The notes under the pieces: model-generated
The model's input: only the letters and a program-made list of their open reading frames with translations
What the model was told of the DNA's origin: nothing
Database searches by the model: none
Shown here: in pieces, positions 4,032 through 23,400 of the stretch
How the letters are laid out: every line of letters begins with the position of its first letter
Numbering within the stretch: position 1 is the stretch's first letter
Position numbers and translations under genes: made by a program
Source of the DNA: Priapulus caudatus
Lineage: Eukaryota > Priapulida > Priapulimorpha > Priapulimorphida > Priapulidae
Assembly: GCF_000485595.1 (NCBI RefSeq)
Contig: NW_014578813.1
Location: forward strand, 1-24,465
Length of the DNA stretch: 24,465 nt
Reading direction: 5' to 3'

Positions 4032-4270
4032 GGTTACAGCTCGCTAGTCCGACCGCCCAATAGTCCGAAAGCCCACTAGTCCGAAAGCCCCACTATCCAA
4101 ATACCACTAAGTCCGAAAACCCACAGGATGGGGTACCGATCTATACCTAATGTTTAATTAATTAATTAATTAATTAATTAATAATTTTTTTTTTAAATTT
4201 TAATTCTTAATTTTACATTTTTTTTTTCATATTTTTTTTTTAGGGGATGTAGGGGGAGGTGTGTGTGGGG
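4032..4270. repeat. Left inverted end of composite element
   Basis: Tandem short units of the form CCCACTAGTCCGAAAG (4038-4130) are followed by a TTAA repeat (4153-4181), A/T homopolymers, and a G-rich stretch (4230-4277). The first part is the reverse complement of 8160-8287. Confidence 0.75.
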
Positions 4271-4372: not shown

Positions 4373-4680
4373 AGTCCAGGCATTTCGTGAAAAAAATGGG
4401 GTCAACCTCGGACAAATTGCAACAGAAAGTCTGTCAACTGTTTTATACCCAGAAATATGTCCTCTATAACATATCAAAACTCTTAAGGAATCCTGGTGGT
4501 GGAAGGTTCCATGGCGGCCATTTTTCAAAATGGCCGCCATACAACTGATATTTCCCTATATCTCCGCTTCTAAATAACATAGAGCTTTGATTTTAAGTGC
4601 TAAACATACATTTTCAGGGACAAGGAATCTAATAAAACACATTTCAATAAGCTAAACCTGACCAAAAAGCCGAAATGGCA
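4373..4680. repeat. Left arm of inner ~300-bp inverted repeat
   Basis: Pairs as reverse complement with about 7046-7344. Shared landmarks are AGTCCAGGCATT, CCTCGGACAAATTGCAACAG, AAGGAATCCTGGTGGTGGAA, TTCAGGGACAAGGAATC and AATAAGCTAAA. It contains a near-perfect palindrome of ATGGCGGCCAT halves at 4511-4540. Just outside, 4311-4337 reads ACGGTAAAACCTCGTTATAC, resembling pogo/Tigger-type termini; this outer piece has no partner on the right. Confidence 0.8.
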
Positions 4681-6924
4681 GCCAAAACCAGATGTCATGG
4701 TGCCTGTCACACAACGTGCATCTATTCCACACTGAAGTTCGTGTGTGAGCATGTTCAGCGCCATGGTATTACGCCCATCATCACCTTTGACCAACCACTA
4801 TGGTGGAAAGCACTCATGATCATCGAGACTGAGCCCACAGGAAGTGTCTTGAATGACATAGTCTTGCGCCTGGGGGGCTTTCACACAGAAATGAGTTTCT
4901 TGGGAAGCATCGGGCACCTCATGGCTGGATCAGGACTGCAGGAATTCTTGGAGCTAATCTATGCAGACAACGCGGTGGTACACATGATGACAGGCAAGGC
5001 TATTGCACGAGCAGTGCGAGGACATCTCCTTGTTGATGCAGCACTGAATGCCTTATTTTGTCAGACGTACTTGGTGTGCCACTTCCTCAACCATCTGCAG
5101 AGCCACATGAAGTGGAGGAGACCAATGAGGCAACAGTGTCACCAGATGATGAGCCTACGGAACTGGAAACACTGATCTTGATGAACTTGCTGCCCTCTAC
5201 AAGAACCTGATGGAAGGTTCCGTGTCTGCAGAGGAGTTCTGCCAAACTGATGTGTTAACCAGGATCAAGGAGCTCCTCAGGGCCAAAACCGAATCCTTGA
5301 GGTTCTCTAGGACTGCCACACTTTGGCTACAGTACATGGAGATGGTGGACATACTACGGAAGTTTGTCAGAGCAGAGGGCATTGGCAGCCTCTGGGCACA
5401 ACCTCTACACCAAATCAGCCCGCCTCTATGTGCAGCGAATGAGCAAGCTCAAGGATGAACATCCAGATGTGTACCAACGATTCGAAGAAGGGTCCCATGT
5501 TGTCAGAAGAAGTGATCGCCTATGGGCTGGTCTGTCCGTAGATCTCACCATCGAACAGGTGCTGATGAGGACTATGAAGACCAGCGGTGGCCTGACGAGA
5601 GGGCGAGGCATGACAAAGCAACAGCGGCTCATATGGCTGCTCTCCATGCCTGCCTGTGCTAAAGTCAACAATGCTATGCAGCAGCTCACAGGTGTCAACT
5701 ACAACACTGGTGAACAAAACAAGGACATGGCAAATGCTAGACAAGCACGTGACATGAAAGACACACATGCAGTTATCAGCAATCTGTAAGAGAGACACCC
5801 TTCAGCTCAGATCCGAGCTTGCGCAGCATCTCGACAGGGGTGCATGCAACTAGCACAGTCAATGTGGACTCAGCGAAAACTGTTGGAACAGCTATCCTGA
5901 CCAACATGGATGGACAAACTGCTGCTGACTACACATTCAAGAGGAAGGATCCGGCCATCACATTGGCTGCGAAATCGTCAGTAAAGATTGATGGTGGGGC
6001 AGTACAGGTGGATGCCAAGCTGCTTTTCCAGCGACTGACAATTGCTGCAAAAGCTACAGAGGATCTGGAGTCTGTGTTCAAATATGAGCTGTGCAGTTCC
6101 CACCAGCTCTGTTTGATTCCACACTGCTGCTCCGACAGCCACAGAAGGCAGTGCTAGCAGATGCTATCTGGACACTCCTGACACACGATGCACCAGGAAT
6201 CACAAGCCAAGTCCACAACGTGTTGGATGCTGGGGCACTAGTCCAGCGCATTCCATGAGAACGTGGCTCAATATACAAAGGTATCTGCGCGCAATACACA
6301 GAGTATGTCACAAAGAAGTATACACAGGCAACAGTCGTGTTTGATGGATATGATAGTACATCAACAAATGATACAACACACCAGAGACGTACGAGAGGGC
6401 ATGTTGGAGCAACTGTGACGTTTGATGAAGATATGCAGGTCACAATAAAAAAGAAACAATTCCTGGCAAACAAGACAAACAAGCAGCGCTTCATCAACAT
6501 GCTCAGCACCAAACTACGGGCACAGAACTGCCAAACACATCATTCTGCAAGTGATGCTGATCTCCTCATAGTGCAGAACGCAGTGGAGTCTGCAGCCACC
6601 ACTGATACAGGGCTGATCGGAGATGACACAGATCTGCTCATCCTGCTCATCTACCACACCAACCTCAAGTCATGTGACCTGTTATTCCAACCCGAACCAA
6701 AGAAGAATGTGAAGAAACCGCGTGTCTGGAATATGAAGTCTGTCAAGCAGCAGTTAGGCCCTAATGTATCACAGCACATCTTCTTCATACACGCTCTCCT
6801 GGGATGTGATACTACTCCCCCCGCGTGTATGGCATTGGCAAAGGAGCTTCCCTCAACAAATCCAAAACCAGTGCGCACTTCCGTGAACAAGCCAATGTGT
6901 TTGATGTAGCTTATTGAAATGTGT
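4675..6924 (+). pseudogene. Broken transposon-associated gene with PIN/FEN1-like acidic motifs
   Basis: Readable protein fragments run in order across three frames. The first (4675-5170) has TFDQPLWWKA, LGGFHTEMSFLGSIGHLMAG and AIARAVRGHLLVDAALNAL. The middle part (5190-6110) has KELLRAKTESLRF, RLYVQRMSKLKDEHPDVYQ and MTKQQRLIWLLSMPACAK. The last (6110-6900) has TVVFDGYDST, SDADLLIVQNAVES, GDDTDLLILLIYH and FIHALLGCDTT. The spaced acidic residues of the last part resemble the metal-binding pattern of PIN/FEN1-type nucleases; this is inference. The gene is dead: frame changes near 5135-5190, 5395, 5790-5820, 6105 and the C-run at 6820, plus an in-frame TGA at 6256-6258 within an otherwise continuous frame. 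The 5' end starts inside the left inverted repeat and the 3' end runs straight into the right one, so both termini are probably missing. I recognise it as a repetitive invertebrate gene type but cannot name the family with certainty. Confidence 0.7.
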
Positions 6925-7904: not shown

Positions 7905-8287
7905 ATTAAAAATTGAAAATTGAAATTAAAAATTAATTAATTAATTAATTAATTAATTAAAAAATAAATAATTAATTAAACATTAGGACCATAGATCGGC
8001 ACTCCCCATCCCCTGTGGGTTTTCGAACTAGTGGGCTTTCGGACTAGTGGGTCTATTAAAATGTAAATTTAAATAAAATTAAAAATTAAAAAAATTAAAA
8101 TTAAAAATTAAAATTAAAATAAAAAATTAATTAATTAATTAAAAATAAATAATAAATAATTAATTAAACATTAGGACTATAGATCGATACGCGATCCCTG
8201 TGGGTTTTCGGACTAGTGGGCTTTCGGACTGTGGGTTTCGGACTAGTGGGCTTTCGGACTATTGGGCGTCGGACTAGCGAGCAGTCA
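7905..8287. repeat. Right inverted end of composite element, duplicated in tandem
   Basis: Two tandem modules (about 7905-8055 and 8060-8287) each carry a TTAA microsatellite, AATTAATTAAACATTAGGA, ATAGATCG and CCTGTGGGTTTTCG, followed by AGTGGGCTTTCGGACT units. They are reverse complements of the single left module. The TTAA tract lengths and short-unit numbers differ between modules. Confidence 0.75.
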
Positions 8288-9880: not shown

Positions 9881-12800
9881 GTATTATATTATCAGGAGTG
9901 GATAATAGAGATCTAGAATCTAGAATCTAGAATCTCTATTATCCACTCCTGATATAATTAATTATTATCTGCCGAAACACAGCAGAAGGTTGTGAACGAG
10001 TGTTTATATGAAAACCTAGATACAATAAAATGAATAATGTAACCCAACAAGAGTAGGGTTACAACGCGAGCCTATTCTTTTCTTTGGAGGAGTCCCTGTA
10101 TGATTCACTCAGGGTGGTTTTATGGTGCGTTTTTCGAGACTACAACTTCCAAACTAGGTTTATTCTAAACACGAACCTTTCTCCGCTATCCTGGGACTTA
10201 CTAATACTATGTATCATAATACTCTGTATTAAACTATTATAACCTGTTACAAAATTTTGAAGTGACGAGCGGCGATATTTCGAGCGCTCTTTTCTGTTGA
10301 CCTGTGACGTATAGATTCCCAATGCGCATAGCGTTCGACTAACTTCGACTCCAAGATCGAATGTATCATGGGATGCCTGCTGTCAGTCATGACGTCATGA
10401 CGAAGTTAGCCGAACGCTATGCGCATTGGGAATCTGTACGTCACAGGTCAACAGAAATGGCGCTCGAAATATCGCCGCTCGTCACTTCGAAATTTTGTAA
10501 CAGGTTATAATAGATGTGAGAGATGTGAGATATATACAGAGTATTGTGATACATAGTAAGTCCCACTCCCAGGATAGCGGAGAAAGGTTCGTGTTTAGAA
10601 TAAACCCAGTTTGGAAGTTGTAGTCTCGAAAAACGCACCATAAAACTGCCCTGAGTGAATCACTCAGGGGCTCCTCCAAAGAAAAGAATAGGCTCGCGTT
10701 TTAACCCTACTCTTGTTGGGTTACATTATTGTATCTCATGAAAATCGTGAGGTGCTCTACTTAGTGGTGTTTTGTGTAGTTTCTTGGTGGACTTGAAAGA
10801 GCGAGTAATACTTGATATAAATGAAATTTCCAACTTGAATAATTATTTCTGAATTGTCTAAGGAGCAGTTCATGATTCAAGAACACTATTATTTAGAAGA
10901 CCTCTTATAATTTTGTTTTTGTTTTTAAGCAGATAGCATTGTCCCCAATGATACGCTGACACAAGGTGAAACTGAAGAACAGCGTGCCATTAATGGCGAA
11001 ATAGATGATTCAACAAGCAATGATCCTGCGGCCGAAGATGGCGCTAGTAGTAGTGCTAATGCTGAAGGTGGCGCTAGTAGTGCTGCAGAGGAGAAACGTG
11101 AGGAGACTTTCTACAATTTTGATGACTATGTTTCGAAGCCGACTTACACCCAGGATTCACAGCTTCCCTTAGATGTCCTCACCTTGTAGTATCCTTTTTC
11201 ACTTTTTATTTGGCAGGTTAACTGCAAATGTCTCTAGGTTAATAATAAATAGAACAGGGTGGTAAATCCAGGAGAAGAACCAAAATACATTATTTATTGA
11301 ATGTGGATGATACCTGCCATATGTCAACAATTGCTCTGAATAAGCTTAGCCCCTCGCAAACAACATCTTGTAAAAATATCACCGGGAATTTTCTTACATA
11401 TAGCGTGTTTCACACAAGAACCTGGTTCCCTTTGACGAAGGGTGTTATATGTGAACCTGCTACCTTGCAAAACATACAGCGAAAATATCCTGGGTTGTGG
11501 CTAATGCTCCATTAGGAGTGTTCCCAACTTTGATATCATTAATGATTAATGATTAATGATTAATGATTGATAATCCTAACCCTAACCCTAACCCTAACCC
11601 TAACCCTAACCTAAATGACATTAAACCGCAAACTAATATATGACCATGACCATATATATATACAAAGGCGTCGGAAGCAATAAAATAGTGCCGCGGCTTT
11701 GGTGATAGGGCGAGCCCCGGGGAGGCGAAGCCACCCTAGGGGGGTCTGGGGGCATGCCCTCCCCCGTGAAAATTTTGAAATCTACAAGGCAAATGGTGGG
11801 CTCTGGTGCATTCTGAGCATTGTGATTTAGCACAAAAAAGTGTGTTTCACTGTAATTTGAGAAAAATACATGATGATTTGAAAGATTTGTTGCTTAACAT
11901 AGAATTAAAATATTCAATAATGACCAAAAACTCCAAATTTATTTTTCTCACTTTAACAGTGGAATAATCTGTGGTAAAACTTCTTGAAATACATTCCCAT
12001 TCAAGACATGCATACAATTGTACTGGTGCTCACAAACGAACTGTTAATATTCGTCATGAAACGCGCTGACCCCGGGCAAAGCATGCTCCCTCAATATAAC
12101 GCAACGACATGCTGCCTGCATAGAATCAGGAGTAGACGGGGAGCAGAGGAATGTGTGCCAGAGTTCTGGATCATAAAATTTTATAGCTACAGGTGACCCA
12201 GGGGGGGGGGTCTAACCGTAAGACATACTTGCGAGCACGGGAAGGGGGGATCTGGGGGGCCCTCCCCCAGAAAAATTCTGAAATTAGACCCCCTCAGATG
12301 CGTTTTCTGCGCGAGCAGGGGGGTCCGGACCCCCTGGACCCCCCCTGTACACGCCCCTGGACCTGACCTCATCTGACCCTGGTCTCCGCTTATAGGGGCC
12401 TAGATTACACGTATATACATGATATATGTACCGGCCAAAAGATGGTATAAATTATTGAAAGATTTTGGTTACGGAAAATTTATGGCCTGAAAAAAGTGCC
12501 GCGGCAGTTCCGACGCCCTTGTATATATATATATGTTATTATGACCATTAATGACATTAAAGTTGGAAACATTCCTAATGGAGTATCACCCTGGGTTGTT
12601 TTCATACAAATGACAAAATTCACATGAACATGTATGTTGTTCCCTTTGATTGTGGCAAGTATATATATATAAAAATTCGTTAACGTTATTACATATCCTG
12701 ACCTCCGTCGGCAGTCACTCGTTTGGCTACGATTGCAAGAAGCGACGTAACCTACACCTGATGGATGAAGAAACGGTGATATTCGCTGCTGGCAACTTGC

Positions 12801-15800
12801 TTCAGATACTCAACCTTCACACGACAGAGCAGAGATACTTCCGCACCAGCGGTGGAGGGGGCATCGGCGCTATCGCGGTACGCACACACTACTCTTCAAC
12901 GTTTAGTTTATGGTGCAGTGATTATAGCGACTTATTACACAAGGTCTGAGTAAGGCAGTACATGAAATTTCACAGATATGGACGGATAGCAGCTTTTAAG
13001 TAACTATGTAACCACTGAAGACAGTTTCGGAAATAGCAACGTGGTGTGCCTGTAGTCACTGAGACAAACGGGGTAAAATTAATACCCAGTGTCAAATATT
13101 ATATACACTACTCGCACTATCATTCTCCTCATTTATATCTCCCGGCAACTCCATGTTTCTCACGTCAATAATCGCGTCTGTTCCCTTCATCGGGTGAGGT
13201 TTGTGTAGAGTTCTAGCTGATTTAACGCCGTGTACAACATACACGCTCCCTGTTGTCATCCTATTCCTCAAGAGTTTGATCTTCGTACCATATCACCATG
13301 CATATTGCCCGTGTCATCACGTATGGCACAGGCTCTGCAGTGGCAGCGTTCCATAGTCATAGATGGTTCGTGGCTATGGTCACTCTAGCTCTACCTGTAT
13401 AGCCCTCTCCGCACAGGTCTCTGCAGGAGCAAAGAGCTAGGTATATAGGTAGGTAGGGCCACTACGCCCCACACCAACATCAGGGGTCGTTCACTGCTAT
13501 AGCTATATAGGCAGAGCTATACTCCAGCACTGCACACCACAGCACAAACCTGTGGTAAAGCGAATAGCTGGCTGTATGAGTAGAGCTACGCGTTACACAG
13601 ACATCAGGGGTTGTACAGCACCACGACTTTTCGCTGGCGCTTCCTGCTGCCGTACACCGCAACCATCTGCTCGACCGCGAGGCTGACGAACCCTGCAGCA
13701 ACGCCCCCTAGCAGGAAGAAGAAGATGTTTTGTAGGCTGGACAGCAGCAGTGAGTCACAGGCGACGGCGTCTCGGTCGTGCGTCGCGCACGCGTGCACCG
13801 GGTTGTCCACAAACTCCTGCCGCCACTTGAGCAGCACTCCGTAGCGTGAGAGCGCACGCACGCTGGCATTGAGCGGGGCGTGGTAGCGGCTGCCGTGGGC
13901 CGTCGCGCACGTGCCGTGGTTCAGCAGGTCCGTCGTCACCAGCGCGAGCCGGCACGCCCCGTCGCGCCGGTAGTCCCACTCCGTGTAGAGGCTCGCGAAC
14001 ACGTGACTATCGAGCAGCATCGCGAAGTGGCCGCTCGCGATGAGTGGCACCACCTGTTCGGGCGCGTGCGTGATCGCGGCGGGGTGAGCTGACGTCTTCG
14101 CCCACAGCTGGCCGAGGTCTGACTCCGGGCGGCTCTCCCTCAGCAGTGTCTCCACACCGAACCCCGCGTAGACGACGGGCACGACGGCGCCCTCTGCAGT
14201 CTCGCGCAGGTTCGTGAACGGGTACGCGATGGTGGTTCGCACGGAGAGGAAGCTGACGAGGGTGCCCGTGTACGTCGCCATGACGACGATGACGAAGCCC
14301 CACCAGGCGGCGCTGAGCACACGGCTCGCTCCGCGCCACGCCGCGTACGTCCCGCCCTGATTCGCCAGCGTGCCGAAGATGTACGGCACAGTGACGAGAA
14401 ACGCTAGTGCCCAGCAGGGGGCGCCGCCCGCCGCTGTGCGATGCAGCGCGGCGAGCGTCGCCGCGACGACAGCCGCGCAGACGAATATCAGCAGCCAGGT
14501 GGCGACGCTGAACGGCGAGAACACGGTGAGGAAGGCGTGTCGGCGGGCAGGCCGGCTGATGATGAACACGTAGTTATGCACCAGCATCGACTCGAGGAAT
14601 CTCACGCGGCGCCGCCGCCCCGGCAGCACGGTGAGGTCGCACGCGATGTCAAGGTCGCGAGCATCGAGGAGGTCGGCTACGGTGCGGAAGCCTCCGTCGC
14701 AGACGTGCCGCACAGAGTAGGTGAAGTTGTGGTGGCGGGCAAGCTCATCGATCACCTTCATGTAGAAGTGATTCAGCGGGTAGTCGTGGTAGAAGCTCAG
14801 GCAGCTACACAGCCACATGCTGACCGTCAGGTGAGCGCCATTCAATGCTGTCCCATGATCAACGAGGACGTCGCCGGACGGGCGATTACGCAACGCCGTG
14901 TCACGGTCGTGTTGCCACCGTGAGGCGCCGGCATTGCCACCCGCCCCGACCTCGCATCGCCCGCCACCTCCCGCGTTGACGAGTCCCGCCGCCATCGCCG
15001 TTGTTGCCATGATGACAGTTACCGTGATCGCTGCGTTGCCCATGGCACGTGTCATCCGGACGCTTTCTTTCCTCGAGGAATTCCTCGCCGCTGTCCGTCT
15101 CCTCCCGCGGAGGAAACCGGACGCAGAAGTTGCAAAGAGAAAGCAGATAAACTAGACAGGAGGAGGAGATGGTTTTTCCTCAGATTACGGAGGAAGGATT
15201 CAACAGTCGGCGTTCATTCGGTCAGCGTTCCCTCACGATGTATACGCGACCGTACGTCAGCAGCGTGCATTCTGCACATGTGTTGTAATAGATGCGGCAG
15301 TCCACGCGAGGCAGTTCCGTCACTGATGAAAGCAATCTCAGTAGAAGCTATCTCAGTAGAAGCTACGTGGCAGTTAGATGCCGGTGCTAGCTTCTTCACT
15401 GCCGATCGCTGTCTGTCACCCACCTGTCCCGCAATATAACTACTTATATATACATGACATGCTGAATCAATAGCCGACGCATTAGCTAATGCCCACGTGT
15501 GTATTTACACGGTGTCTGGTTTGTGGTGATTATTGGTCGGAATAAGCTGCAGCTTCCAGATATCTGCAAACAGAACTAGTCAGGTGCGAGCAATGTGATC
15601 TGTTTGCAATTTGCATACAACGGAAGGTAAACAGATCAGTGTCTGCCGTGCTGCTGCATTCCATTACATCATCATCGCTCTCGCTCTATCACACACCACC
15701 GCGTGTTCAGCAAGCAGAATATTATAGTAGCGTCGAGCCACGGCCTATACCTCCGCACACACAGACCCGTATACACACACGCACACATGCGCACGGACGC

Positions 15801-18800
15801 ACGCACGCACGCACGTGCACACACACATGAACGCAAGCATGCACACACACGCACACACATGAACGCAAGCACGCACACACACGCACACACATGAACGCAA
15901 GCACGCACACACACGCACACACATGAACGCAAGCACGCACACACACGCACACATGAACGCAAGCATGCACACACAAGCACACACATGAACGCAAGCACGC
16001 ACACACATGAACGCACGCACACACACATGCACGCACGCAAGCGCACACACATCTTCATCATGTGTCTGATTACAGGTGCATCCTTCGCGAAAATATTTTG
16101 CTGTTGCCGAGAAAGGAACACTGCCCTGCATCAACATCTTTGAGTATCCGTCGCTGCGTCTGTACAAGATCCTGCGCGATGGCACGCAGAAAGCCTATGC
16201 TTCCGTCGATTTTAGGTGAGACAACTAGAGTTTAAAAAATGATCTATTACCGTTGTAAATCCGCAGTGATGTTTGGTATATAAATTTTCACCTGTATTGA
16301 TAGTAAACATTCATACTTTGTGTGTCACTGCAAATTCTAGAATTTTACGCATGCACACACATGTGTATATATATATATATATATTTACATATATACATAT
16401 ATACATACATATATGTACACATACATACATACACAACTCGGGGATGTAAACCTATGTTGTTGTTGCACAGCCCTGATGGAGAGCTGCTGGCATCGGTTGG
16501 CAGTGATCCTGACTACATGCTCACCGTGTGGAGCTGGCAGCAGGAGAAGACCATGCTGCGATACAAGGCCTTCTCCCAGGACGTCTATAAGGTTTCCTTC
16601 TCGCCGGAGAACCCCGGCCAGCTGACGACGAGTGGGTCGGGACACATAAGGTGCTAACGCTACACACGCACACACACTTGAGCTGTTTATCGCGTGAGAG
16701 AGGGTCCTCACCGTCACCCTAATACTAACTTAGTCAGGTGTAACTCTAACCTTTACTGTAGCCCCAATGTGAACCCTTATTATTATGCTAATCCTAATCA
16801 TTATCCTAATTCTAACCCGAACCCTTATGCTAATCCTAACCCTAATTCTACCCCAAGCCCTAAGCCTTACCCTAATTTTAACCATACTCTTAATGCTAGC
16901 TTAAGCTTAACCCTACTCTTAATGCTAATGCTTAAGCTTAACCCTACTCTTAATGCTAAGCTTAAGCTTAACCCTGACTGTTGTTGTTATTGTTGACGTA
17001 GGTTTTGGACGATGGCGAGGACGTTTACAGGGCTGAAGCTGCAGGGAGCCATCGGTCGATTCGGTCGGACGGAAATCTCCGACATTGAAGGTTATGTCGA
17101 ACTGCCCGACGGAAAGGTACTGAAGATCAACGCCATCTGCTGGAACTGCAGTTTAGTTAGTAGTAGTTAGTGATAGAAATGGTTAGTTAGTAGTACTTAG
17201 TAGTAGTAGTTTCGGTACACGCGTGTCCCGTAACGACTGTTTCCTGACCTTGCGTGCTGGACTCTTCCAGGTTCTGTCTGGCTCGGAGTGGGGTAACATG
17301 CTTCTCTGGGAGGGCGGTCTCATCAAGGTGGAGATCTCACGCAAGGCTGGCAAGACCTGCCACCAGGGGGCGATAATGCAGTTCGTCATGGACGAGGGGG
17401 AGCTCATCTCTGTCGGACAGGACGGATTCATTCGCGTGAGAAAACGCACCGTTATTGTTGCTTATATCCGTTCATCGCTATCCGAATGTCAGTCGATGTC
17501 GTTATAATTCCATGTCTATTACTACTTTTTTACTCTATTGCATTATATAATAACCAGTATATATGTTACAGTCAAGCATTAGAGAACCCCATGTCCCTGT
17601 AGGGTCTGTTATACAATGATACCAGCACTATAGAATCGACGGACAACCGTCTATAAAGAACGCTTTTTGGGGGGGTTCCTTTTGTGTGACCCTTATGGCG
17701 CTGTCATACCTCCGTATGAAAGCCAGCGTATACCGACGTATGAAAAATTTGGTGAATACGCTGGCGTACGTTGAAATAAGTTAATGGGTAAGCCTTTGTA
17801 TAAGTTTAAGAGCACGCTGAAGCACGTCTGAAGCACGCTGGTAATACGTCGTAGTACGGCGAGGTCGTCGAAAAATTTTTGAGCATTGCTCACTTTTTCC
17901 ACGTATGCCAGCGTATGCCCATACTCCCCATACGCGGCCATAAGTTGTAGGTAAGTTATGCGATCAGTTGACACACGTTCACACACGTACTTGTAAGTTA
18001 CTCATAAGTCAAATACGTCGAGATAATCAGCGTACCCAAATCTTATTTCTAACCTATGAGTAACGTGCTTTGAACCTATGTGTAAGTTATCTCCATTCTA
18101 TGTAAACGTATTTGACGTGTTCCGGACGACCACAGAAATTGCTGAACGTGTTTCTAACTTACATCTACCGTATAATGGCGTATTAGCAGCGTTTAGGGTA
18201 ATTGGTATATAAAAATGGTATTGGCATGTTGATACTGCGACGGTGATGTTGATACTGCGATGTCTAGTGCGGTTATGATTTGAATCGTCGAGCGGCCGCC
18301 TTTTTATAGGCTACGACACGTGATCGTCGGCGATACGCTGCCGCGCGCTATGCATAAGTTAGACTATCGTTGGGCATAAGTTGTGAACGCCGGCAACACG
18401 CTAAGCATTCGTTGGTATAAGTTATCTATAAGTTATCGAAACGTTCTATATACGTTACTAATACATTATGTATACGTCCAACTCGTTATGAATATGCTAT
18501 GTATACGCCCAAAATTGAAAAAAAACATCGATAGTTCAGCGTATGCCAGCGTTTTAGAGAAATTTTGATACGTCGGCATACGCTGGTTAAATCGTCAAGG
18601 TGTGACAGGGCCATTAGATACAGGTTTGACTGTAATACCAGCGATGTGTGACTCGTGCGTGTGTGCGCGCGCCAGGTGTGGGACTTTGAGACAATCGACC
18701 AGGCGGACACGAGCGATGAGAGCGTCAAGTGTGAGCTGGAGCCGATGAGAGAGCTTCGCGTCGGCAGTAACGCCATCCTCACCTCCATGGTGAAGTCCCT

Positions 18801-20014
18801 CAACCCTGACACACCGACGATATGGTACGCTCAGGTATGTGACCTTGACACGCACAGGTAGGTGACCGCTTGCCCACTATATACTACCCATACTCACGTG
18901 CATGCCAAAATGTCGGGTGTGCAGCACTTCATTGATAAGCATTAGTGAGCATTATTGATTACATCCTTTTTCAATGATTTGAATTTCATTTCTCGAGGAT
19001 GCTAACGGTGGAATCTGGAAGGTCGATCTTGCTATCTCTCTGACATCAAAGGGACCGGAGAAGTTGTTTTCCTACCACGGTGGGGAAGTCACTGACTGTG
19101 ATGTGTCTCCAGTCAGCCACCTGGTAGCAACAATCGGAACCGATGGTATAAATCCTACGCTACTATAAAACTACGAGAGCTGAATGATTAATTGAAGTAG
19201 TAATCTAGGAATAGTGTCAAAGTTTTATGGATGTTTGATTTGTAAGAGAGAGTTGCGTTGTACAGTTACTTTCATTGATGTATTGATAAGTGGTGTATTG
19301 ATGTGATCTCACGCAGGCACACTGCGAGTGTACGACTACTACGGCAAGAAACCCCTGTGTGACGTGCGATACGGAGCAGGTGGCTCCATCGTGCGGTGGA
19401 TGCCGAAAGCTGTGAGTATAGTCATCATAGCTATATGATTCGCAGACCTTTAATGTACAAAATAACAACACCATTACAGAGAGAGAGAGAGCGAGAGAGG
19501 ATATATGACTCTATTCTTGCTTTGTAGGTGGACCGGCGCGGCTCTATGACTCTATGCTTGCTTTGTAGGTGGACCGGCGTGGCTCTATGACTCTATGCTT
19601 GCCTTGTAGGCAGACCGGCGCGGCTCTATGACTCTATGCTTGCCTTACAGGTGGACCGGCGTGGCTCTATGACTCTATGCTTGCCTTGTAGGCAGACCGG
19701 CGCGGCTCTATGACTCTATGCTTGCCTTGTAGGCGGACCGGCGCGGCTCTATGACTCTATGCTTGCCTTACAAGTGGACCGGCGTGGCTCTATGACTCTA
19801 TGCTTGCCTTGTAGGCAGACCGGCGTGGCTCTATGACTCTATGCTTGCCTTGTAGGTGAACCGGCGCGGTTCTATGACTCTATGCTTGCCTTGTAGGTGG
19901 ACCGGCGCGGCTCTATGACTCTATGCTTGCCTTGCAGGTGGACCGGCGCGGCTCTATGACTCTATGCTTGCCTTGCAGGTGGACCGGCGCGGCTCTACGC
20001 TGGTTGCAGGCTTT
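9859..20014 (+). CDS. CFAP44: CFAP44 (WDR52), cilia and flagella associated protein 44, 5' part (11 exons)
   Basis: CFAP44 is an axonemal WD40 protein. With CFAP43 it forms the tether/tether-head complex holding inner dynein arm I1/f on the doublet microtubule, and its loss impairs flagellar beating (established for the family). Eleven exons join in frame with GT-AG introns to give about 492 residues: an acidic low-complexity N-terminus (1-70), the lead-in [20 protein letters not shown], then a WD40 propeller. Landmarks are [87 protein letters not shown] and [20 protein letters not shown]. Family members are near 1,800 residues, so only about the first quarter is here. The start ATG lies in GTGAGATGG, with purines at -3 and +4. 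The frame stops after 12 codons of exon 11 where homologues continue, so the 3' part is absent or misassembled. Confidence 0.93.
9883..9957. repeat. Near-perfect palindrome at the start of CFAP44 intron 1
   Basis: The arms at 9890-9912 and 9932-9954 are exact 23-bp reverse complements, and pairing extends outward through ATTATA/TATAAT with a 3-base offset. The 19-bp loop is a TCTAGAA heptamer repeat that is itself partly palindromic. The left arm begins about ten bases after the exon 1 donor. Confidence 0.9.
10015..10737. mobile_element. Foldback (long inverted repeat) element in CFAP44 intron 1
   Basis: Two arms of about 330 bp (10018-10347 and 10401-10736) are reverse complements at high identity, around a 53-bp spacer that ends in the 16-bp palindrome GTCATGACGTCATGAC. 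The outer ends read AGATACAATA and TATTGTATCT. ATGAAAA occurs on both sides (10008-10014 and 10738-10744), a candidate target duplication. No coding capacity is seen. It is a non-autonomous element whose superfamily I cannot assign. In the pre-mRNA it would fold into a long double-stranded hairpin. Confidence 0.8.
10933..11185 (+). CDS. CFAP44: CFAP44 exon 2
   Basis: Acceptor TTTTTAAGCAG, donor GTAGTA, phase 1 in and phase 2 out. Encodes an acidic, Ala/Ser/Gly-rich stretch ([14 protein letters not shown], then repeated GGASS-like units), followed by [18 protein letters not shown]. The upstream frame is closed by TAA at 10926, which fixes the acceptor. Confidence 0.85.
11535..11574 (+). repeat. 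ATTAATG heptamer repeat
   Basis: About four tandem copies of ATTAATG next to the left terminus of the element and directly abutting the telomere-like tract. Confidence 0.8.
11575..11610 (-). repeat. Interstitial telomere-type repeat, six units
   Basis: Six consecutive CCTAAC units (TTAGGG-type on the minus strand) lie inside the intron 2 element. TTAGGG is the ancestral animal telomere motif. The tract is short and flanked by transposon sequence, so it is not a chromosome end. Confidence 0.9.
11659..12525. mobile_element. Inner nested inverted-repeat element
   Basis: The ends are TATACAAAGGCGTCGGAA (11659-11676) and its inverted partner, reverse complement TATACAAGGGCGTCGGAA (12508-12525). 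Both sit in TA repeats, so a TA or TATA duplication cannot be defined exactly. GCCGCGGC follows each end. Two G/C-rich blocks resemble each other: GGGGGGTCTGGGGGCATGCC then CTCCCCC (11738-11765), and GGGGGGATCTGGGGGGCCCT then CCCCC (12244-12269), each followed by an AAAATT.TGAAAT stretch. No transposase is seen. Confidence 0.65.
12715..12877 (+). CDS. CFAP44: CFAP44 exon 3
   Basis: Acceptor CGTCGGCAG, donor GTACGC, phase 2 in and 0 out. Encodes [20 protein letters not shown], then [20 protein letters not shown] and [13 protein letters not shown], the start of the WD40 propeller and highly characteristic of CFAP44. Confidence 0.95.
12878..13603. other. Intron 3, part upstream of the nested gene
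   Basis: No coding region is supported on the plus strand. ACATCAGGGGTCGT at about 13479 partly repeats the 3' end of the nested receptor reading frame (ACATCAGGGGTTGT at 13603). I see no clear polyadenylation signal for the minus-strand gene. Confidence 0.5.
13604..15055 (-). CDS. Ionotropic-receptor-like (divergent iGluR family) ligand-gated channel, intronless
   Basis: 483 residues in one exon. Order: hydrophobic signal-like N-terminus (5-25), Gly-rich linker, then an S1 half-domain from about 76 ([40 protein letters not shown]). M1 is about 179-204, the pore region about 214-235 ([11 protein letters not shown]) and M3 about 244-271 ([27 protein letters not shown]). S2 is about 272-440 ([35 protein letters not shown]) and M4 about 441-468 ([20 protein letters not shown]). 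The M3 motif [11 protein letters not shown] is the degenerate SYTANLAAFLT typical of ionotropic receptors (IRs). The large amino-terminal domain of classical glutamate receptors is missing. IRs are plasma-membrane cation channels used in chemosensation in protostomes; the ligand is unknown. GC content and codon use are much higher than in the surrounding intron. It lies within CFAP44 intron 3 on the opposite strand. The alternative is a divergent true iGluR, but its short length argues against that. Confidence 0.88.
   Translation of the reverse strand: MTRAMGNAAITVTVIMATTAMAAGLVNAGGGGRCEVGAGGNAGASRWQHDRDTALRNRPSGDVLVDHGTALNGAHLTVSMWLCSCLSFYHDYPLNHFYMKVIDELARHHNFTYSVRHVCDGGFRTVADLLDARDLDIACDLTVLPGRRRRVRFLESMLVHNYVFIISRPARRHAFLTVFSPFSVATWLLIFVCAAVVAATLAALHRTAAGGAPCWALAFLVTVPYIFGTLANQGGTYAAWRGASRVLSAAWWGFVIVVMATYTGTLVSFLSVRTTIAYPFTNLRETAEGAVVPVVYAGFGVETLLRESRPESDLGQLWAKTSAHPAAITHAPEQVVPLIASGHFAMLLDSHVFASLYTEWDYRRDGACRLALVTTDLLNHGTCATAHGSRYHAPLNASVRALSRYGVLLKWRQEFVDNPVHACATHDRDAVACDSLLLSSLQNIFFFLLGGVAAGFVSLAVEQMVAVYGSRKRQRKVVVLYNP
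15056..15775. other. Intron 3, putative upstream region of the receptor gene
   Basis: No coding region is supported. GC-rich DNA next to the receptor start gives way to ordinary intron sequence. It includes a 15-bp tandem duplication (ATCTCAGTAGAAGCT, twice from about 15337). The promoter of the minus-strand receptor should lie here, but I see no definite core element. Confidence 0.45.
15776..16050. repeat. CA-rich 32-bp minisatellite
   Basis: ATGAACGCAAGCA recurs at 15827, 15859, 15891, 15923, 15953 and 15985 (spacing 32, 32, 32, 30, 32), embedded in CACACACACG. The array ends about 25 bp before the exon 4 acceptor. Long Cys/Val/Ala-rich frames on the minus strand are only translated repeat. 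Confidence 0.9.
16076..16215 (+). CDS. CFAP44: CFAP44 exon 4
   Basis: Acceptor GATTACAG, donor GTGAGA, phase 0 in and 2 out. Encodes [40 protein letters not shown] and YASVDF, one WD40 blade. Confidence 0.95.
16363..16433. repeat. TA/TACATA microsatellite in intron 4
   Basis: Alternating TATATA and ACATACAT units, ending about 40 bp before exon 5. Confidence 0.85.
16471..16650 (+). CDS. CFAP44: CFAP44 exon 5
   Basis: Acceptor TGTTGCACAG, donor GTGCTA, phase 2 in and 2 out. Encodes [40 protein letters not shown] and [20 protein letters not shown]: two WD40 blades with the usual Trp-containing ends. Confidence 0.95.
16715..16980. repeat. Degenerate CCTAAN (telomere-like) repeat, intron 5
   Basis: CCTAAT, CCTAAC, ACCCTTATG and CTTAAGCTTAACCCTACTC units are mixed with no long perfect run. 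The 3' part is a clearer ~35-bp tandem unit (CTTAATGCTAAG, CTTAAGCTTAACCCTACT). The Asn/Pro-rich frame on the plus strand is translated repeat, not a gene. Confidence 0.75.
17002..17116 (+). CDS. CFAP44: CFAP44 exon 6
   Basis: Acceptor GACGTAG, donor GTACTG, phase 2 in and 0 out. Encodes the end of the HIRFW motif, then [36 protein letters not shown]. Confidence 0.95.
17271..17435 (+). CDS. CFAP44: CFAP44 exon 7
   Basis: Acceptor CTCTTCCAG, donor GTGAGA, phase 0 on both sides. Encodes [40 protein letters not shown] and [15 protein letters not shown]; this is among the most conserved parts of the family. Confidence 0.95.
17696..18613. mobile_element. PIF/Harbinger-like MITE in CFAP44 intron 7
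   Basis: The left end is TGGCGCTGTCATACCTCCG and the right end (reverse complement) is TGGCCCTGTCACACCTTGA. Similarity continues through CCAGCGTAT.CCGACGTAT and ACGCTGGC.TACG. TTA flanks both sides (17693-17695 and 18614-18616). The 3-bp TTA duplication plus a GGC-CTGT terminus is what PIF/Harbinger elements leave. The interior is rich in ATAAGTTA and TACGT words and has no transposase. It ends about 60 bp before exon 8. Confidence 0.75.
18676..18834 (+). CDS. CFAP44: CFAP44 exon 8
   Basis: Acceptor GCGCGCGCCAG, donor GTATGT, phase 0 on both sides. Encodes [40 protein letters not shown] and [13 protein letters not shown]. Confidence 0.95.
18998..19145 (+). CDS. CFAP44: CFAP44 exon 9
   Basis: Acceptor TTTCTCGAG, donor GTATAA, phase 0 in and 1 out. 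Encodes [40 protein letters not shown] and HLVATIGTD. Confidence 0.93.
19317..19411 (+). CDS. CFAP44: CFAP44 exon 10
   Basis: Acceptor TCACGCAG, donor GTGAGT, phase 1 in and 0 out. Encodes [20 protein letters not shown] and [12 protein letters not shown]. Confidence 0.95.
19504..19995 (+). repeat. 41-bp x 12 tandem array of a 3' splice site plus exon 11 start
   Basis: Twelve units, exactly 492 bp. Each has 24 bases of intron end (TATGACTCTATGCTTGCCTT then GTAG or similar) plus 17 bases of exon start (GTGGACCGGCGCGGCTC). Acceptor dinucleotides are AG in eleven units; unit 7 (acceptor near 19773) has CAA instead. Exon-part variants GTGG, GCAG, GCGG and GTGA occur. Only the last unit continues into further coding sequence (TACGCTGGTTGCAGGC). 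A GA repeat (19479-19499) lies just upstream. Confidence 0.95.
19979..20014 (+). CDS. CFAP44: CFAP44 exon 11, truncated
   Basis: The last acceptor of the array (CCTTGCAG) gives [12 protein letters not shown] in phase with exon 10, as expected for the family. TAA follows at 20015-20017, where homologues continue with an acidic stretch and further WD40 blades. No good donor precedes the stop. It is either a true breakpoint or an assembly join. Confidence 0.75.
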
Positions 20015-20463
20015 TAAAAAGTTTCATGAAATGAAATGGATCGATTTCGTTGAGGAGGGAATCACGTTCAGCGCCTGTGATTGATCTCACACGCGTTTAT
20101 TTGTTTGTTTGTTTACAGACGAGCTTAGGGTTTGCATGGACGCTTGCGATTTGCATGGACAATGGCTTTTAGCTGATTCACCGTGACGCGCGTCCGCCAC
20201 GCGGCTTACGCGGTCGCTTTTTCGTTCGTTTTGAGACGGGGCGCCGATAGGGCAAACGTGTTTTAATCTACCGCTGCATGGAGGAGACTTTGATAGACCG
20301 CGCCGTGTCTGCCACGCGCATCCATCCGCAGAGGGTACAGCAGCCAACCCAGCAGTCGCTAGCGCCAGTCTATGAGCCGCGCAGGGGAGATAGAGCGTCA
20401 AATTTTCGTTGATGTTGAGGCGGAGATTGTCGCAATTGTTTCCCTCGCCCGCATTTATGTGAT
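20015..20463. other. Sequence between truncated exon 11 and satellite; no gene supported
   Basis: I could not find the continuation of CFAP44 here in any frame. A TTTG repeat followed by TTTACAG (20098-20118) looks like an acceptor, but what follows has no family similarity I can see. The GCGTGGCGGACGCGCG-type composition around 20190-20230 is unremarkable. Confidence 0.5.
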
Positions 20464-23400
20464 GTTTGTGGTAAGGAATAACCACCACACCGGCATGTGC
20501 GTGGTTGTAAGGGAGGTTTTAAGGAAATAACCACCACCCGGCATGGTGCGTGTGTGTATTGGAGAGGTACGGGAATAACCACCACACTGGCATTGTGAAC
20601 GTGGTGTAAGGGTGAGAGGTTAGGGATTAAACCCACAACGGCGATGGCTGTTTGGGTGTAAGGAGAGATGGTAGGGAATAACCACCCACACGGCTATGTG
20701 GTGTGTAAGGGAGAGGTAAGGAATAACACCACACGGCATGTGCATGGTGTGTAAGGAAGAGTGTTAAAGAATAACCACCACACCGGGGCTGTGTGTGGTG
20801 TAAGGAGACGGTAGGGATAACCACCACACGGCATGTGCGAATGGTGTAAGGGAGACCAGAGGTAGGGAATAACCACCACACGGCATTGTGGTCGTTGGGC
20901 TGTTATAGGGAGAGGTAAGAATACACCACACACCGCGCTATGTGGCTGGTGTAAGGAGAGGTAGGGAATAACCACCACACCGGATCGTTGCGTGGTTGTT
21001 AAGGCAGAGGTAGGAATAACCACCACACTACCGGCAATGTGCATGAGTTGTAAGGGAGAGGTAAAGAAATAACCACCACAACCGCATTGCGTTGGTGTAG
21101 TGGGAAGAAGCTAAAGAATACACCACACCGGCATGTGCGTGGGTGTATGGATAACACCACCCGGCCATTATGCGTTGGTGTAAGGCATGAGGTAGGGAAT
21201 AACCACCACACTGGCACTGTGAGAACGCGTGGTGTAGGGAGAGGTAGGGAATAAAACCACCACACTGGGATGTGCGTGGTTGTATGGGAGGGTGGGAATA
21301 ACACCACACGGCATGTGCCGTGTTTGTTAAGGAGAGTAGGTACAGAATAACACCACCCGGCATGTGATGGTTGTAAGGGAGACAGCGGTAAAGAATAACC
21401 ACCACACGGCATGTGCGTGGTGTTAGAAGGGAAGAGGTAGGGGAATAACCACCACACCGGCATGTGCGTGGTTGTATGGAGAGGTAGGGGAATTAACCCA
21501 CCACACAGCCATTCGTGTGTGGTTAATCTGGGTTCTGATAAGGGAGAGGTAGGGATAACCCACCACCGGATGTGCATGGTGTAAGGGGGGAGGAGGGGTA
21601 GGGAATAACACACACCGGCATGTGCGTGGTTTGCTGTAAGGGAGAGTATGGGAATAACACACACCGGCATCGTGCCGTGGTGTAAGGATTAAACACACAC
21701 CGGCTATGTGCGATGGTGTAAGGCGAGAGGTATTGGGATAAACCACCCACCGGATCGGCGTGGTGTAAGGGATGAGTAGGGAATACCCACCAACCCGGAT
21801 GGTGCCGTGGTGTAAGGGGATGAGGTAGTGCAATACAACCAGACCGGCTATGTGGTGGTGTAGGGAGAGGGTTAGGGAAATAACACCACACCGGATGTGC
21901 GTATGGTGTATCGGGAGAGCGTATGGGAATAACAACACAACAACAGTCATGTGCGTGGTTGTAAGGGAGAGGTAGGGAATTAAACCACCACACCGGCATG
22001 TGATGGATGTAGAGTTAAGGAATAACGACCACACCAGCATGTGTACGTGGTGTTAAGGGAGAGGTAGGGAATAACCACCACACCGGCATGCTGCATGGTG
22101 TAAGGGAGCGAGGTAGGGAATAACCACCACCGGCAGTGTGCGTGTGTTAAGAATTAACACCACACCGCTGCCATCGTGCAATGGTGAAAGGGAGAGGTAG
22201 GGAATTAATCACACACCCGGCATTGTGCGTAGGTGTAAGGAATAACCACCACAGCCGGCATGTGGTGGTGTCATACGGGGAGAGGTAGGCGATCAACCTA
22301 CCACAACGGCATTCGATGCGTTAGGTGTAGGGCAGAGGTATAGGGAATAAACCAACCACACCGGCATGTGCAGTGTGCTGTAAGGCAGAGGATAAGCGGA
22401 ATAAACCACCACACCGGCATGCTGCATGGTGTAAAGGGAGACGGATCAGGGAATAACCACCACAACGGCATGTGCGTCGGTTGTAAGGCGATGAGGTATG
22501 GGATATAACCACCACCCGGGAATGTTGCTGTGGTGTAAGAGGGTACGGGAATAACCACCACACCGGGCTATGCTGCTGGTTGTTAAGGCGAGAGGTATGG
22601 GAATAACCACCACACCGGCATGTGCATTTGGTTGTAAGGGAGAGGTAGGGAATAAACCACCACACCGGCAAGTGCTTTGGTGTAGGGAGAGGTAGGGAAT
22701 AACCACCACACCGGCCATGTGCGTTGTGGTTAAGGGAGAGGCTAGGGCAATAACACCACACCGTTGCATTGAGTGCCATGGTGGTAAGGCGAGACCCGGT
22801 AGGAATAACACCACACCGGGCATATTAGTGCGTGGTGTTAATGGGAGAGGTAAAGAATTACCCCCACAACCGGCATGTTGGTGGTGTGTAGATGGCGAGA
22901 GGGTAGGGAATCAACCACCCAGCACTGGCATGCTTGCACTCATTGGTTTGTTAAGGAGGAGGTAGGATAACACCCACTTGGGCATAGCTGCGTGCGTGTA
23001 TGGAGAGGTTAAAGAATAACCACCACAACCGGCGATGTGCGTAGCTGTTAATGGGAGAGGTACGGGAATATAACACCACACCGGCACATCGCTGTGCGTT
23101 GGTGTCAAGGGAGAGGTAAAGGATAACCACCACACCCGGAAATTGTGCGTTGGTTGTTTATAGCGGAAGACGGTTAGGGAAATCACCACTCACACCCGGA
23201 ATGTGCAGTTGGGCCTGTAAGGCAGAGGTAGGGAAATAACCACCACACCGGCAATTGTGCGTATGGGCTGTTGGGGCAGAGTAACTAAAGCAACTTACAC
23301 CACCAGCGGCATGAGTGGGTGGCTGTATGGATAACCCACCATCACCGGCGATAATGCGCTGAGAGTGTAAGGTGAGAGCGGTGAAGGATAACCACCCACC

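Follow-up and report, generated by a model that had tools for sequence, protein, structure and literature searches.

A twelve-copy tandem repeat at the intron 10/exon 11 boundary of Priapulus caudatus CFAP44: a likely neutral mirage minisatellite

We describe an array of twelve tandem 41-bp units in the priapulid Priapulus caudatus, each unit of which joins the terminal part of intron 10 to the first bases of exon 11 of CFAP44, a gene of cilia and sperm. Contig C1701, 24,465 bases long, was analysed over its full length (the window). The animal is identified by the mitochondrial COX1 encoded on contig C2952 of the assembly, which matches that of P. caudatus with 100% identity over 95% of the query, Halicryptus coming next at 90%; a vertebrate or an insect was rejected on this ground. 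In our judgement the array is most probably a neutral mirage minisatellite, the amphioxus name for a tandem repeat of an intron/exon boundary together with its splice signal; its last copy most likely serves as the exon start. We favour this reading because the array is free of insertions and deletions (indels) and dominated by transitions, the junction matches the CFAP44 family exactly, nine upstream exons are intact, the intron and exon parts of the unit vary about equally, and there are amphioxus precedents.

Structure of the array

The twelve units follow one another head to tail without a single indel. Tandem Repeats Finder (TRF) gives a span of 19504-19997 with a period of 41, 12.0 copies, 92% matches, 0% indels and a score of 827; together with the listing of the individual units this agrees with an earlier note, made from the sequence alone, which had described twelve copies at 19504-19995. 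The consensus is departed from at 23 of the 492 array bases, 22 times by a transition, and the ten variable columns hold two bases each. Units are 85-100% identical: units 3 and 5 are the same, as are units 11 and 12, and the most distant pair differs at 6 of 41 positions. These observations confirm that the array is real sequence, far beyond chance. A three-unit higher-order pattern, suggestive in units 3-8, was rejected, because reshuffling the units gives a similarity at a lag of three units that is no lower (p 0.30). When two units were used as a query against the whole assembly (385 Mb in 2,952 contigs), all six matches fell inside the array, and it appears to be a single locus as far as a search that skips very common words could see.

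Each unit consists of 24 bases from the 3' end of intron 10, followed by the first 17 of exon 11. The intron part carries TGAC at positions -22 to -19 in all twelve units, a pyrimidine-rich tract and, in eleven of them, a terminal YAG. Unit 7 (19750-19790) has CAA in place of the YAG. The up to eleven acceptors proposed in the earlier note, with unit 7 lacking an AG, are borne out as far as the YAG is concerned, but unit 7 retains an AAG one base on, with its AG at 19773-19774. An additional AG lies four bases downstream (GCAG) in units 3, 5 and 8.

At seven of the twelve unit borders the acceptor AG is followed directly by GT, the arrangement found at ratchet points, where an acceptor and a donor are juxtaposed (PMC8605326). 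The units could accordingly be imagined as recursive splice points, at which the intron would be removed stepwise and the use of an upstream copy would be harmless. We regard this as barely credible: four units have AG followed by GC and unit 7 has no AG, and the intron does not exceed 567 nt, whereas ratchet points are placed in long introns (PMC8605326). The donor half, GTGGAC, is also poor compared with the general donor consensus.

Position of the array in CFAP44

Three solved CFAP44 chains were the top matches (E 1.8e-22 to 4.4e-21, in the N-terminal WD-repeat region), and the CFAP44 of the mollusc Tegillarca is 66% identical to the protein encoded in the window. Nine CFAP44 exons, A to I, were mapped on the plus strand (Table 1), all of them open, with AG before and GT after each. 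Their codon phases, worked out by hand from the exon coordinates, agree from A through I; a first exon with a start codon was not identified among them. Exon I, which is exon 10 in the numbering used for the array, ends in ...WMPKA where the Tegillarca protein has ...WAPQI followed by VDPKGATFLAGF, and the exon 11 start, read from 19979, aligns with the CFAP44 family without gaps. Judged from this alignment, the array straddles a genuine phase-0 junction of intron 10 and exon 11, and the composition that the earlier note gave for the unit, the intron 10 acceptor plus the first 17 bases of exon 11, fits the family junction exactly.

Reading frames and acceptor strength

To follow each acceptor into the exon, we read the frame of exon 10 on from every unit. 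Acceptors of units 1-7, 9 and 10 run into a TGA in the unit after next (for unit 7 on the assumption that the missing AG still served), and that of unit 8 meets a TGA in unit 9. Units 1-10 do stop early, as had been claimed; the stop, however, is in the next unit only for unit 8. If the poor AAG of unit 7 were used, the stop would fall at 19793. From the penultimate acceptor, in unit 11, a shifted frame of 48 codons stays open, ending at a TGA at 20082-20084 and not at 20078 as previously given. The last acceptor, in unit 12, gives the family sequence as predicted, but only for 12 codons, after which it reaches a TAA at 20015-20017. No acceptor on the contig leads to a complete message.

Acceptor strength was scored with a crude matrix built from the gene's nine other acceptors, whose own leave-one-out scores range from -3.7 to 7.4. 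The array units score from 1.5 to 7.3; equally high scores are reached by 2%-20% of the window's 1,491 AGs, so the matrix is only weakly selective. RNA folding predicts low accessibility at all the acceptors (0.15-0.33) and singles out none.

These results bear on the idea that the acceptors compete, with upstream choices giving early-stop messages that would be degraded, so that the length of the array would tune CFAP44 output. The YAG present in 11 of 12 units, scores like those of the gene's other acceptors and the early stops from units 1-10 would all suit such competition. Against it, the repeated acceptors show no clear constraint, splicing is reported to be undisturbed by amphioxus arrays of this kind, and no acceptor on the contig holds the family frame past 12 codons. 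We see competition as a minor possibility. The earlier note's proposal that acceptor choice tunes the amount of functional message finds no support on the contig, since the last acceptor itself hits a TAA where 112 of 112 relatives continue. More far-reaching, and decidedly improbable, is the notion of a store of autonomous 3' splice sites engaged in intron remodelling, each with its branch point, tract and YAG within 41 nt, whose stochastic use would set CFAP44 output through nonsense isoforms, whose AG-GT borders could seed introns and whose copy number would be a heritable dial in a gene of sperm and cilia.

The break at 20015 and the end of the contig

In an alignment with relatives, the TAA falls where their proteins read on. 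Among the 120 listed, 112 reach the end of the query (the 8 that do not were left out), and all 112 go on with xDG[VIM][VIL]R where the priapulid contig has the stop. This stop, reached 12 codons into the exon, is unlikely to be where the gene truly ends; it more probably shows where the contig ceases to be reliable or where the copy is broken.

We looked for the missing part in several ways. With 113 downstream queries, taken from the 120 proteins, tblastn against the window gave 41 rows at E up to 1, nine of them in the tail and none within 20000-20462; three tail rows at E 0.72 reach into 20463-20513, and the strongest (E 0.016) lies inside a satellite. Downstream CFAP44 was likewise not found in the assembly with a Tegillarca piece at E 1e-3 (33 candidates scored), with a Bulinus piece at E 10 (one candidate scored; exon I alone matched), with a consensus query at E 10 (one scored), with a C-terminal piece of the Tegillarca protein at E 10 (one scored) or with a pattern of conserved motifs allowing two mismatches. 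In a control, the upstream portion of Tegillarca CFAP44 matches eight exons here: exon I at E 0.098, and the other seven at E 2.4e-9 or better. This control flatters the negative result, which is weak, because conservation is lower downstream (of 21 comparisons, 19 give an identity of 33-58% and the other two 28% and 75%, against 57-74% in seven upstream comparisons) and few candidates were scored. The sequence after the array was also considered as a dispersed repeat and rejected as such, having matched only itself in the assembly in a search that skips very common words.

A second CFAP44 copy holding the missing part was considered and rejected: the sole match of the upstream Tegillarca query off the contig at E below 1, on contig C2333, is CFAP43, a relative of CFAP44, with 184 bits to solved CFAP43 and 72.5 to CFAP44. 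This CFAP43 sequence, at about 10280-10627, lies in one open frame of 1485 codons (665 of them viewed), and CFAP44 is intron-rich by contrast. The species' own CFAP44 protein is absent from the matches listed (the best 120 of 659 and the best 120 of 214), among which proteins longer than about 1720 residues could not be candidates; a full-length P. caudatus CFAP44 may exist outside them.

Beyond the break, the contig changes in quality. Its last 4 kb are a satellite with the unit GGAATAACCACCACACCGG... and insertion-heavy noise: the 64 of 74 segments that are 40-60 bases long, compared with a hand-typed consensus (the 10 others and the last were left out), show 0.177 indels per base (402 bases inserted, 161 deleted) and 0.029 substitutions per base. 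Uncorrected PacBio reads have an insertion-heavy, indel-rich error profile. The satellite profile suggests uncorrected long-read sequence and is unlike natural divergence. We trust the array and not the last 4 kb, because the array is indel-free and varies by transitions whereas the satellite is noisy with indels. Sequence beyond about 20015 is doubtful, and the break lies between the trusted array and the untrusted satellite.

Two further explanations turn on this region. In the first, a rearrangement interrupts exon 11 at 20015, and the array sits at the decaying end of a truncated gene or broken copy. It draws on the TAA, on the loss of family similarity at that point and on the failure of four protein queries and one pattern to find a downstream exon in an assembly where the upstream Tegillarca part matches eight. 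It is nonetheless unlikely: the upstream exons are intact, the seven that match at E 2.4e-9 or better being 54-75% identical to the mollusc, the downstream absence is weak for the reasons given, and the end of the contig has an uncorrected look. We consider an error or misjoin of the contig likelier than a true truncation at 20015. In the second, the copy number or the junction is itself an artefact of assembling noisy long reads, as the indel rate of the final 4 kb might suggest, and as one amphioxus mirage was judged to be aberrantly assembled in its draft genome (PMC3087553). We find this very unlikely, given an array that is indel-free over 492 bases and whose units differ by transitions, unlike the satellite noise.

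Variation among units and the case for neutrality

Variable columns number 5 of 24 in the intron part of the unit and 5 of 17 in the exon part. Amino-acid changes among units are V to A (units 3, 5, 6 and 8) and D to N (unit 9). The single loss of a YAG is too little change to argue for selection. The repeated acceptors show no clear sign of constraint, and we read their variation, without proof, as drift.

We prefer the reading of a neutral mirage minisatellite. A tandem duplication that chanced to take in both sides of the intron 10/exon 11 boundary would have grown to twelve copies by slippage or unequal exchange; the array probably drifts without function. The last copy, the only one joined to further exon sequence, is most likely the junction used, and the upstream copies would then be spliced out as intron. 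A share of transcripts, probably small, may take an upstream copy and be frameshifted or stopped; such use is plausible because all twelve copies fall in the range of real acceptors and have their own TGAC.

Several observations weigh against a neutral array with the last copy as exon start. The last acceptor opens no complete reading frame on the contig. All twelve units score inside the span that the gene's other acceptors give when each is left out in turn, and it is unit 1 that tops the matrix, at 7.3, ahead of units 11 and 12 (both with CAG) at 6.6. In addition, three of the five variable exon columns are at third codon positions and two change the amino acid; third positions thus vary more (3 of 5) than others (2 of 12), an excess short of significance (Fisher p 0.12) that may hint at coding constraint.

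Other features of the window

Coordinates are collected in Table 1. The intron that separates exons B and C of CFAP44 contains a minus-strand open reading frame (ORF) of 515 codons resembling an ionotropic receptor (13604-15151; Pfam Lig_chan, PF00060, E 2.7e-14). Tandem repeats at 15790-16052, 16366-16433 and 16878-16975 end 23-37 bases short of exons C, D and E, and the exons are not entered. Repeats of 16 bp, TAGTCCGAAAGCCCAA and, further on, near-reverse-complement repeats like GTGGGCTTTCGGACTA, occur at 4045-4090, 8015-8051 and 8200-8277. Overlapping plus-strand ORFs at 4651-6909 (174, 101, 162, 134, 75 and 216 codons) may be one broken gene; four pieces gave no Pfam match. Scans of the window with Rfam (at the gathering threshold) and for tRNAs found nothing. 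Elsewhere in the assembly, a COX1-like stretch with many stops (contig C1568, 75493-76781) is perhaps a nuclear copy of mitochondrial DNA.

Table 1. Features of the CFAP44 region of the window
Feature	Position	Strand	Remarks
CFAP44 exon A	10933-11185	+	open, AG/GT borders
CFAP44 exon B	12715-12877	+	open, AG/GT borders; Tegillarca query also matches
CFAP44 exon C	16076-16215	+	open, AG/GT borders; Tegillarca query also matches
CFAP44 exon D	16471-16650	+	open, AG/GT borders; Tegillarca query also matches
CFAP44 exon E	17002-17116	+	open, AG/GT borders; Tegillarca query also matches
CFAP44 exon F	17271-17435	+	open, AG/GT borders; Tegillarca query also matches
CFAP44 exon G	18676-18834	+	open, AG/GT borders; Tegillarca query also matches
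CFAP44 exon H	18998-19145	+	open, AG/GT borders; Tegillarca query also matches
CFAP44 exon I (exon 10)	19317-19411	+	ends ...WMPKA, phase 0; donor GTGAGT at 19412
Intron 10 via last acceptor	19412-19978	+	567 nt; via unit 1, 116 nt
12 x 41-bp minisatellite	19504-19995	+	TRF, unit listing, frame reading
Shifted frame from penultimate acceptor	19938-20084	+	48 codons, TGA at 20082
Family-like part of exon 11 (only such stretch)	19979-20014	+	12 codons from last acceptor
In-frame TAA where relatives continue xDG[VIM][VIL]R	20015-20017	+	contig error, rearrangement or real truncation
Post-stop sequence	20018-20469	+	one assembly match (itself); no CFAP44 similarity 20000-20462
Satellite, 46-49 bp, to contig end	20470-24465	+	indel-rich; TRF, segment alignment

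Comparison with known systems

The human gene 6-16/IFI6 (G1P3) contains a minisatellite that, as reported by Turri in 1995, is said to give multiple splice donor sites. The likeness is that a splice signal is multiplied inside a transcribed gene; the difference is that donor sites are repeated there and an acceptor with an exon start in the priapulid array.

The closest parallels are the amphioxus mirages of the globins BflGb6 and BflGb9, of Adh3 and of troponin C, all of them tandem repeats of an intron/exon boundary in which the splice signals are repeated. In BflGb6 the duplicated segment is, as here, the 3' end of an intron with the 5' part of the next exon; two haplotypes have six and three units with an identity of 81-100%, the name mirages follows the Adh3 case, and a model of intron gain was proposed (PMC3087553). 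The priapulid array shows the same features: head-to-tail repeats, an authentic boundary with its splice signal, and a unit identity (at most 6 of 41 differences) and length (41 bp) that lie within the published ranges of 81-100% and 10-160 bp. Its last copy continues into the exon only to 20014 before the TAA, where the contig end is doubtful. It differs from the amphioxus mirages in phylum and gene, in copy number (12 against the six and three of BflGb6) and in unit length (41 bp against 150-160 bp, or 10-72 bp in Adh3). Transcripts have been examined in amphioxus, genomic DNA in the priapulid. The Adh3 data and reverse-transcription PCR of globins suggest that regular splicing is undisturbed, with cryptic use possible (PMC3087553), and the Adh and troponin C mirages are reported to generate no aberrant mRNAs, in a paper that likens repeats in PGBD5 to mirages (PMC3902484).

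Human tandem repeats at exon-intron boundaries in segmental duplications are also of minisatellite size and may create introns; they belong to recently duplicated paralogues, whereas no second CFAP44 copy was found in the priapulid assembly. Most of the human intron changes go along with alternative transcripts (PMC2812944), which speaks for some effect of such repeats on splicing. Drosophila ratchet points resemble the array in the juxtaposition of AG and GT, but the priapulid intron is short, its donor half is weak and the juxtaposed sites stand in a tandem array (PMC8605326).

By analogy with these systems, the array would be a high-copy mirage in another phylum, with a regulatory role possible. 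If so, this would suggest that mirages are no cephalochordate oddity, the boundary-spanning mirages in the papers cited being from amphioxus, and the locus would offer a natural test of spliceosome choice among twelve nearly identical acceptors in succession, as well as of how introns may arise through tandem duplication.

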